From NCBI GenBank assembly GCA_037951105.1, contig JBAMJV010010718.1:1-64000 (forward strand): DNA of 64,000 nt. The letters run 5' to 3'. Source of the stretch: Echinarachnius parma. Its lineage: Eukaryota > Echinodermata > Echinoidea > Clypeasteroida > Echinarachniidae. Of this stretch, positions 4,070 through 22,965 are shown piece by piece. Every line of letters starts with the position of its first letter. Positions within the stretch are counted from its first letter, which is position 1. Made by a program: the position numbers and the translations under genes. A model generated the notes under the pieces. That model was not told the origin of the DNA and did no database searches. It saw nothing but the letters and a program-made list of their open reading frames with translations.

Positions 4070-7000
4070 GTGAGTCCTTGAAAATATGATGAATTGTTTT
4101 TTGTTGTTGTCATTTCGTGATCAAATGTTTGACTCTTGTCTAAATATTTGATATATTTCTGAGGTTATCACTCAATGTTTTGATGTTACAGTGATAATAA
4201 AGGTCAGGGCAATGATAATAATGGCTTAGATTCTGAAATAGCTAGTCCAAACACAAGATGTAGATTGTTGTACATTTACATGTAATTGGATCTTACATCT
4301 ATTCAAGGACTTATTTCAAGTGGGCACATTAGATAACGCTACATAATTGCATGAAGTTAAATATATTGCTCAATAATGTTCAATCAGTAGCAACATTTGT
4401 TTAAAGGCATGAGTCATGTTTTCTTTCTAAGTCTGCTTTGGAGCCAAAACTCTCTGTTCCCCAAGGAGGGGCCCACACAATGCCAAATTTTCAATCGTTT
4501 AAATATATATAGAAATTTGCCAGCTGGGAATATAATTTGTATGTGACTTCTGGCAAGTGTCCAAATATTGTTTTATTTCTTTTTGTCTGATGTTATGTAG
4601 CTAACCATATCCTCTGTTTCACACAAAGGTGTCCCCACAATAGCAGAGTATTAGGATCTATGCCAAATTGTCCTCAAAACAATAATTCTAAGTGAACAAT
4701 AAATCGCTAAGAGATGACGATCATTACATTCAACGTACATGTTCTTTTTCATTTGTTTTCAAGTCATTTCCTCTGTATCCCACTGATATGCCGCGGGCTT
4801 GATTTGCCTACACAGTGCCAAGGACTAGTCAATGATCCAATAATTGTAATGGAAGATTGTTCTTTCCATCCATGGGTCTATTGGCAAATTCACAAATTGT
4901 ATATATTGTTGTATCTTTCTAGCCATATCCTCTGTATCCTACTGAGGTGCCAACACAGTGCCAAGGGGTTAGAATGGATGCCAAGCTATGCCCAACCAAT
5001 GACATTCTCCTAGCATTCATCAACCAGAGTGATCTCTGGGTCTCGGATGCCATCTCGGGAAACGAGAGGAGGTTGACATTTGCTCATCTTGGTAAGAGTA
5101 GAAGTGTAGTGGATTTGTTTCATATGATTCATTCCTGGGTTTGAAGATGACACATACATAAGCTGTTCACAAACATAACAAGCCAATAGAAACAAGGCAA
5201 GTAAAGGCACACCATAGCTGTCATCAACCAGAATTATCATTTACTCCATTGTACAGTTTCAGTATATGATGACACACGCAGTACCCCGGGGTACCGTTGT
5301 ACCCCGGTATCCCGCGTTGTGTAGCGCCATCTTGTGTTCACTCGAAGTACAACCGTATTGCGTTGTGCATGCAGTGCAGCGCGCGATTGTATGCACGCTA
5401 TTCCTACAGTACAGCCCTAAAAATTAAATAAATAATTAAACAAAATGGCGGATTTTCGTCTGGTACCCCAGGGTACCGTTTATGTCATCATATATTATAA
5501 CAAGTTAGCATTTGTTCTAAAAGATAGGTTTGCCTAAATATACCACATGACAGTAAGAATCGAGGGTCCAATTGCAGAAAGAGAAACAATCGATTGTAAG
5601 TCAGAAACTTAGCGTATTTCAACCAATCAGATTCGCGCATTTAGAACACATGATCTGACTTACAATTAATTGTAACTTACAATCTATAACTTTCTGCAAC
5701 AGGGCCCTTGTGCGATAAGTAAGTTCCATCATCTGGGTACTGGTGACAGCCTGCACTTTCAGAGGGAGATCAGGGTGAAAAACATTGCATGAAGCACAAA
5801 TTTACTTAATATCCCTATTTGTAAGTTCATTATTGTTCTTCTATTTATTGGTATTTTACGTTAATTGCACAGGTCTGCCAAATATTTCAAATGACCCAAG
5901 GAGTGCCGGCGTGACAAGTTACATCATCCAGGAGGAGTTTGACCGCTACACCGGGTACTGGTGGCAGCCGGCACTTTCGGAGGAGGAAAAGAGTGACCCG
6001 GTCTACAGGATACTCTATGAAGAGGTTGATGAGGGGGAGGTGGAGATCCTCAACATCGTGGCCCCCGGTCAAGGGGATGGGGGAGTCGACCGCTACCGCT
6101 ACCCAAAAGCAGGTACAAAGTGACACATATTTAAACAGTTTTTCTTTTTCTATGTGTTTGTGTTTTCATGTTTTAAATCAGTACATACTTGACAGTAGGC
6201 CTGGGAGGAATACCCTTTTTGCTATTTTAATATTCAACCAGAAAGGTATTCAAATAGTTTGGATATCAAATTTTATTTTTTTTAGTATTCGGATAGTTAA
6301 AAAAAGTCATATTAAAATACCAATTACTGTTCAGCTATTCTAATTATTCAAATATTTGTCCCAGGCTTACTTGACAGTTTGAAATCAATAACAAATAACT
6401 TTAAAAAACAACCCCCGTAAATTTGTGAATGACTATGCATCTTCCCTTCCCTTTGATACAAAAAAAGGAAGTAGCATGAGTCATGATGCTTAAACTACAC
6501 TTCCTGTTTGTCTAGTACACAAAAAATTGATTTGTTGAAATATTGTCTCAAAGATTTCTAGATTTTGCATAACTACCGGTAGCCATGCCTGAATGCATGT
6601 TTGGTATAATGTTAAATTAAATACATATGCCAATCTAGGTCCCTAGAGTAATGAATGCTTTCAAGTATATTTAATTTCTTTGCTTGTCATTCAACTCTTT
6701 ATGATCTTCTATCCTATATGCTGTGTGTTTTAGGTACCACCAATGCCAAAGTGACCCTAAAGATGGTGGAGTTCAAGAGGAACGAAGAAGGAAAAGTGAG
6801 TTTATCTACGATATTCCATCTCAAAGAAAGCAAAATGATTTTACATAAACTTAGAAAGTTGGGGGGGCTTGCCTGACTTGGCCACACGGGAAAACAGATA
6901 ATTTCTAGCATTAATTTATGGCGTATGATCTGTAAATAGCAACATTGATAAGATTACATACGAATGTGAACATCTGTCTGCATGTATACATCTCCTACAT

Positions 7001-22279: not shown

Positions 22280-22965
22280 GAACTGGACTATAGATAGATA
22301 ATAGGTAATGTTCACACGCTTGAACAAACATTTCCTTTGCTACATGTGCCAATAACTGTGAGAAGTTTTTAAATTGTGAAGACGATGTGAGTTTGTTGCA
22401 GCAAACCTCGTGACGAGAATGCTTTCTGAACAGGTAGATAGTTGGATAGTAGACCTGTTCAGACTCTACAAGATGAATGTTTTTCGCTGGCTTTTGTTCA
22501 GCTTAGAGGATATTTCGTGAGCAGGCAGATAGGTGAATAGGTACTAGAAGAGCGCATTCTTAGCTATCTGCACCAACTATGAGATGGAGGGTTGAAGAGA
22601 AAATATTAGCGAGTTCGTCAAAGCAACTCCAATGATATCAATTTGGAAACTGGCGGATAATGGACTTGTTCACATACCACAGAACAAATATTCTTAGTTG
22701 GCTGCAGTGACAGTGAGAATAAGAGGACTGTGTGAACAAGTACATAGGCAGATGATGGACTTGTTCACATACCACAGGACAACCATTCTTCATTGGCTGC
22801 AGTAACAGAGAGAATAAGAGGACCGTGTGAACAAGTACATAAGCAGATAATGGACCTGTTCAGACACTATGAAAGATCGCCGTGATTATCCGGAGTTGGC
22901 CAAAGCAACACATGTAAAGAATTCTGTGTTTAACAGATAGGACAAGAAAGGACATGTTCATAGCA
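22280..22965 (+). repeat. Diverged array of about 100-bp units resembling exon 17
   Basis: About six units follow the stop codon. Clear ones begin near 22670 and 22767, 97 bp apart, and read CACATACCACAG, ATTCTTAGTTGGCTGCAG, GAGAATAAGAGGAC and GTGTGAACAAGTACATA. They resemble the end of exon 17 and its flank (ATTCTGAGCTGGCTACAGC ... GATGAGAG ... TTGTGAAC ... AGATAATAGG). Older units lie at 22390-22660 and one after 22860. The array is probably in the 3' UTR. Confidence 0.75.

Follow-up and report, generated by a model that had tools for sequence, protein, structure and literature searches.

Truncated tandem copies at the exon edges of a DPP8/9 gene in Echinarachnius parma, and an apparent change of working splice acceptors between two versions of the locus

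How can a gene remain intact when most of its exons lie beside partial copies of themselves? This question is raised by a DPP8/9 orthologue of the urchin Echinarachnius parma, found at 3572-22258 (forward strand) of the window, the whole 64-kb stretch analysed here, which is the first part of an 81-kb contig in a 1.2-Gb assembly. The gene is intact and has 16 coding exons encoding 845 amino acids. In the gene model all introns were GT-AG and a single open frame ran across the 16 exons. Residues 25-845 matched solved DPP9 structures (E=9e-250), indicating membership of the DPP8/9 family, and the best named relatives of the protein were from sea urchins, Diadema setosum (84%) and Lytechinus pictus (82%). 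Exon numbers below are those of the coding exons (E1-E16); an earlier sequence-only reading of this DNA used numbers that are higher by one.

Each exon was aligned (Smith-Waterman) with its own 1.5-kb flanks, and flanks of exons at least three places away, together with 60 pieces of the window between 24.5 and 64 kb, served as controls. Our results revealed same-orientation local copies above chance at 11 of the 16 exons, seven of them strong. Nine exons exceeded every control in the flank alignment and exon 3 was borderline. The own-flank score and the larger control maximum were 168 and 124 for exon 2, 149 and 145 for exon 3 (marginal), 551 and 98 for exon 8, 108 and 88 for exon 9, 528 and 97 for exon 10, 412 and 95 for exon 12, 458 and 102 for exon 13, 472 and 111 for exon 14, 298 and 105 for exon 15, and 102 and 76 for exon 16. 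Against 1000 shuffles the exon 3 copy was clear, both in the window (149, shuffle maximum 99) and on contig C3642, which holds a second version of the locus (131, maximum 107). The exon 2 copy scored 187 (shuffle maximum 141) and the exon 5 copy 115 (maximum 90) on the window haplotype; the exon 5 copy was absent on C3642, where the score of 61 fell under that haplotype's 99th shuffle percentile. No local copy was detected for exons 1, 4, 6, 7 and 11 by flank alignment or shuffles. In sum, 693 of the 2538 coding bases of the gene (27%) have a local copy at 80% identity or more. Every exon that the sequence-only reading had named as copied has copies by these comparisons, and the copies found do lie within 1.5 kb and in the same orientation, as it had stated. 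A self-alignment of the window, a check which that reading had named, returned direct repeats over exons 8, 9, 10, 12, 13, 14 and 15. Its description of the copies as partial or near-complete stands for partial and fails for near-complete; the copies of exons 3 and 5 are only about 46 and 39 bp long. The series resembling the last exon, which it had placed beyond the stop, is present as a repeat but weak (131, shuffle maximum 119).

All copies and functional exons described here are on the forward strand. Near functional exon 2 (4923-5091) there is an old acceptor-side copy at 4594-4689, with 71% identity and a lost acceptor AG, and a second, weaker one at about 4421-4553. An old fragment of exon 3 (5873-6112), covering exon positions 79-124, lies at 5733-5778 and is present on C3642 too. 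The copy of exon 5 (7039-7142) is a short donor-side one at 7175-7213, made of the exon end and the donor and seen in the window haplotype only. Exon 8 (11285-11426) is followed at 11463-12793 by nine donor-side copies in tandem units of 148/169 bp, which start from about exon position 31; eight keep the donor, the ninth has lost it, and none has an acceptor. Three acceptor-side copies of 62 bp (38 bp of intron and 24 bp of exon) stand at 13180-13365 before exon 9 (13404-13488), of which two keep an identical acceptor and the first has lost its own. For exon 10 (14730-14868), two acceptor-side copies of positions 1-116, without donor, occupy 14209-14591; none such was found on C3642. The acceptor-side copy of exon 12 (16300-16446) at 16028-16268 covers positions 1-144 and has an insertion of about 60-66 bp inside, while that of exon 13 (17531-17683), at 17183-17430 in 212-bp units, covers positions 1-112 and is accompanied by an older remnant. 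Two acceptor-side copies of exon 14 (18579-18721) are located at 18171-18502; the first has lost its acceptor and the second carries an in-frame stop. Exon 15 (21177-21288) has an oldest acceptor-side copy at 19668-19755 (66%), a later one at 20964-21087 and, downstream of the functional exon, a donor-side copy of positions 66-112 with the donor at 21592-21644. The decayed repeat series resembling the last exon extends over 22420-22960, beyond the stop codon.

The window also holds repeats of other kinds. A 151-bp tandem array in intron 14 (20079-20811) is absent from the same intron on C3642, and relatives of it occur on C3642 at 95284-96148 on the opposite strand. Two copies, 91% identical, of an element with GGTACC-rich ends are found in two DPP8/9 introns (5258-5491 and 18892-19124), and a 31-bp tandem array of six copies (98%) lies at 43404-43592.

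The copies have a common geometry. Those upstream (exons 2, 9, 10, 12, 13, 14 and 15) run from the intron through the acceptor position and end inside the exon, without a donor; those downstream (exons 8 and 15) start within the exon and carry the donor, without an acceptor. No copy among those examined carries both splice sites, and none could serve as a normal internal exon. Departures from the pattern are due to decay, namely the donor lost from the ninth exon 8 copy and the acceptors lost from copies of exons 2, 9 and 14; the exon 3 fragment covers neither site. The units are adjacent and on the same strand, and the two breakpoints of a unit fall in exon and intron, respectively, as in a duplication across an exon boundary. 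A tandem duplication with such breakpoints leaves a truncated copy beside one intact exon, and this geometry accounts for copies that lie upstream with their own acceptor, as had been perceived before. The statement that copies are usually upstream also held, the main exception being exon 8 with its nine extra copies downstream. The 16-exon model, considered alone, requires no newly created intron.

The region C3642:102350-129098 was colinear with window positions 42-28446, in pieces that were mostly 86-98% identical. Its protein differs at two residues (dN 0.002, dS 0.107). Several kinesin genes were likewise found on contig pairs with nearly equal scores, judged by eye, and the assembly probably keeps both haplotypes. 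C3642 is likely to be the other allele and not a recent paralogue, though a dS of 0.107 is high for an allele. Copies of exons 2, 3, 12, 13, 14 and 15 are common to the two versions, while copy numbers are unequal at six exons. Between the window and C3642 they were one against none for exon 5, nine against three for exon 8, three against one for exon 9, two against one for exon 14, and two against one for the upstream copies of exon 15. At exon 10, the two upstream acceptor-side copies of the window are set against two downstream donor-side copies on C3642, which both comprise the final bases of the exon and a GTAAGT donor; these two copies are absent in the window. Other differences were seen as well. 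The exon 13 donor is gttggt on C3642 (exon at 119383-119535) and gtaagt in the window. A palindromic element of about 357 bp (25519-25875, arms 93%) is absent on C3642, which makes it an insertion difference. Another palindromic element, at 10257-10493 within an intron of the window, is 98% identical to C3642:105075-105315, in a different place; it was not found at the matching intron of C3642.

Comparison of the two versions suggests that the working acceptors of exons 10 and 13 have switched between copies. At exon 13, the window's working flank, taken over 90 bases, shared 86 of 90 positions with the dead-copy flank of C3642 and 63 of 81 (three gaps) with the working flank of that contig, while the exon parts were 96-98% alike. 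At exon 10, the working flank of C3642 matched the flank of the window's first dead copy at 48 of 50 positions and the window's working flank at 35 of 45. For these two exons and two haplotypes, from which the hand-over was deduced, this amounts to about 96% identity with the dead-copy flank of the other version against 78% with its working one. The working flank of exon 12 on C3642 looks like a mosaic, and no flank exchange was seen at exon 15 in the same comparison. Most simply, the flank that serves the exon would be swapped by crossing-over or conversion within the piece of exon that the copies share. For exon 10 the order may also have been the reverse, with a duplication in the window lineage only; however, the flanks would then have diverged faster than the synonymous distance of 10% suggests. 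Divergence within the units bears on the same point. It was 2/109 in the exon part and 26/91 in the intron part of the exon 13 unit on C3642, and 7/138 and 8/34 in the exon 12 unit, while the exon 13 unit of the window showed the opposite trend (13/112 and 6/100). Since the gap between exon and intron in some units is far larger than simple neutral decay would give, exchange must be added to the model. The lower divergence of the exon part in several units fits an exchange concentrated in the exon piece.

Is this a peculiarity of one gene? The sequence-only reading had supposed that repeated short tandem duplication is a habit of the locus or of the genome, and this was borne out by local duplications across the genome and by copies at exons of other families. 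The edge geometry of the copies, the unequal copy numbers of the two haplotypes and the apparent change of working acceptor go beyond what that reading had noticed. In 18 other stretches of 164 kb in total (163,952 bp; two from the contig of the window and 16 from elsewhere), we found 39 local tandem-duplication clusters, or 2.4 per 10 kb, together covering 9.3% of the bases. Over its 20 kb the DPP8/9 gene held nine clusters (27% of bases), about twice the density of the genome, and two later 20-kb parts of the window held four each (about 6% of bases). The duplication habit is genome-wide. GC content was considered as a cause and rejected, the gap between duplicated bases (40.7%) and the rest (38%) being too small to account for much.

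A search by codon use for coding exons in the other stretches returned mostly repeats and few exons. Gene families were surveyed by profile searches, in which same-strand matches within 1.5 kb covering the same part of the profile were taken as exon and copy. Of two that overlapped, the shorter was called the copy, and any copy as long as its parent would also have appeared among the matches. The counts are lower bounds from the best candidates scored (for the myosins, the best 65 of 273). The kinesins gave at least nine copies at 8 of 137 exon instances, the CCT/Cpn60 chaperonins at least three at 3 of 89 and the myosins at least six at 5 of 86, hence at least 18 copies at 16 of 312 exon instances in the three families after removal of copy-to-copy matches. 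Allelic contigs were counted apart, so that some of the 16 instances depend on one another (C8560/C8152 and C12482/C1423 seem to be paired). On the two DPP8/9 contigs, with different E-value limits, the method caught three of six copy-bearing exon instances. Most surveyed copies are known from coordinates and profile range alone. All 18 were shorter than the parent match; upstream copies missed more of the 3' side and downstream copies more of the 5' side. Trimming on both sides was seen on C4594 (13 and 17 positions) and to a lesser degree on C10331 (13 and 36) and C1423 (35 and 15). Among the candidates scored, there were no local copies of equal length and no opposite-strand pairs within 1.5 kb; one opposite-strand pair was 6.9 kb apart. 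A further CCT pair, 1.6 kb apart, was left out of the count. Glycogen phosphorylase showed no duplicated exon among its 15 matches at E≤0.001.

Some copies elsewhere were read in the sequence itself. For example, a CCT exon copy consists of the acceptor and 93 exon bases, without a donor. In what we take to be an ABCC-like gene, located in one of the 18 stretches, an upstream copy of the first part of one exon is 85% identical over 83 bases and its acceptor has decayed. In a gene that is presumably prolyl-endopeptidase-like, one exon has an upstream copy on both contigs and a downstream copy on one; no strong copy was found at two other exons of this gene. Exons of a presumed LHFPL-like tetraspan gene lie about 36 kb apart on the reverse strand, at window 38256-38540 and at L002:512-979 (C10696:74512-74979), and neither is inside a local duplication listed for the window or the stretches of its contig. 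Two equal-scoring sets of myosin exons about 89 kb apart (G000:C2768:27785-39190 and 117946-128363) may be a recent gene duplication or an assembly repeat.

Taken together, the copies are probably the survivors of frequent short tandem duplications, of about 50-260 bp, that strike the genome widely. The duplications found at exons break once in the exon and once in the intron next to it. What they leave is a complete exon between its splice sites and a truncated copy, which lies upstream where the acceptor was duplicated and downstream where the donor was. A truncated copy without one splice site is putatively skipped and thus tolerated, whilst duplications inside an exon or of a whole exon would be purged by selection. 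The copies may later decay, multiply, be deleted or swap sequence with the working exon. Recombination or conversion in the shared exon piece would then put the acceptor of a copy onto the working exon and leave the protein unchanged, as the two haplotypes suggest. We propose, tentatively and at slightly less than even confidence, that truncated copies form a standing reserve of splice sites at many genes of this urchin, from which acceptors pass from copy to copy through recombination in the shared exon piece, so that alleles come to carry non-orthologous acceptors and flanks around an unchanged protein.

Other explanations have to be weighed against this duplication model. Tandem exon copies often turn into mutually exclusive exons (PMC6071210; PMC9013439), and several copies here combine an intact acceptor with high identity. 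That they are alternative exons giving DPP8/9 isoforms is nevertheless the least credible of these explanations and was rejected: the copies are truncated, with units ending within the exon, none examined has both splice sites, the exon 12 copy has an insertion and the second exon 14 copy a stop in frame, and neither the exon 8 unit (148 bp) nor the exon 9 unit (62 bp) is divisible by three. Assembly errors or merged haplotypes might be suspected in an assembly of 14,790 contigs that, from pairs judged by eye, apparently contains both haplotypes, and the near-identical arrays at exons 8 and 9 could be mis-sized. As an account of the copies in general, however, this is very improbable, because copies of exons 2, 3, 12, 14 and 15 occur on both contigs, other copy numbers differ between them and the oldest copies are about 30% different from their parents; the same geometry was also found at the 16 exon instances elsewhere among the candidates scored.

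That the copies act in splicing, perhaps tuning the gene's output as decoy acceptors or donors, is slightly less improbable, yet still quite unlikely. The window haplotype has three identical acceptors in a row at exon 9 and nine donors at exon 8, working ones included, and use of most of these surplus sites would shift the frame. In two units, that of exon 12 in the window and that of exon 13 on C3642, conservation is much higher in the exon part than in the intron part, and the first exon 10 copy shows the same skew, though part of its intron alignment may be non-homologous. On the other hand, copy numbers vary widely between versions of a gene that is itself constrained (dN 0.002), stops or insertions are present in some copies, and mismatches between copy and parent are about equally frequent at codon positions 1 and 2. 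With exons 8 and 9 left out, the mismatches at positions 1, 2 and 3 were 40, 37 and 69, about what is expected for a neutral copy and a constrained parent. The geometry follows from tandem duplication itself and does not prove neutrality; it is the mismatch pattern, the unequal copy numbers, the stop at exon 14 and the insertion at exon 12 that, as read from the sequence, favour copies with no function. Somewhat less doubtful, but still unlikely, is that transcription or splicing targets duplication to exon edges. Clusters overlapping exons numbered seven of nine in the window (random mean 5.0) and seven of eight on C3642 (4.2), a weak excess over random placement (P=0.15 and 0.04, respectively). 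Exon-sized segments with a local copy at a score of 200 were 6 of 16 for the exons, compared with 29 of 300 in the genome and 12 of 200 elsewhere in the window; but the introns of the same gene were equally rich (53 of 150 segments), many of these being the copies themselves.

How does the short tandem duplication favoured here compare with known systems? Minisatellites are tandem repeats, and the exon 8 array, with its 148-bp unit and recurring 148/169 pattern, is comparable; unlike them it takes in most of a coding exon and its donor. In the potato RdRp gene, a duplication across an intron-exon boundary created an intron. The unit there is alike, running from the 3' part of an intron to the 5' part of the next exon with branch site, pyrimidine tract and acceptor, but it is a single case in which a cryptic donor led to a new spliced intron, whereas here there are many units per gene, haplotype-variable copy numbers and an apparent change of acceptor. 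In one study, within-gene copies at 80% identity or more account for about 2% of exonic bases in human and 0.08% in fly (PMC9013439), against 27% of coding bases in this DPP8/9 gene, by different methods. Local same-strand exon copies within a gene are shared with tandem exon duplication, although those works address usable exons, and the DPP8/9 copies are without one splice site (PMC9013439; PMC6071210). In Drosophila, novel intron positions have been attributed to tandem duplication or sliding (PMC2891723); there too, local duplication of coding sequence with splice signals alters splice sites, but intron positions move, while here the positions are fixed and the flank is exchanged. We found no account of genome-wide partial exon copies or of acceptor exchange between haplotypes in a literature search that left most subscription journals outside. 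Boundary duplication and complete tandem exons are known; what is new is how dense the copies are, how they vary inside a single assembly and the apparent exchange of acceptors.

If the pattern is general, introns next to exons would be fast-turning exon debris, and gene prediction and exon capture would be misled, with truncated copies counted as exons. Splice sites would be replaceable without a broken intermediate, and natural variation within one animal would provide the starting material for intron gain, intron sliding and alternative exons.
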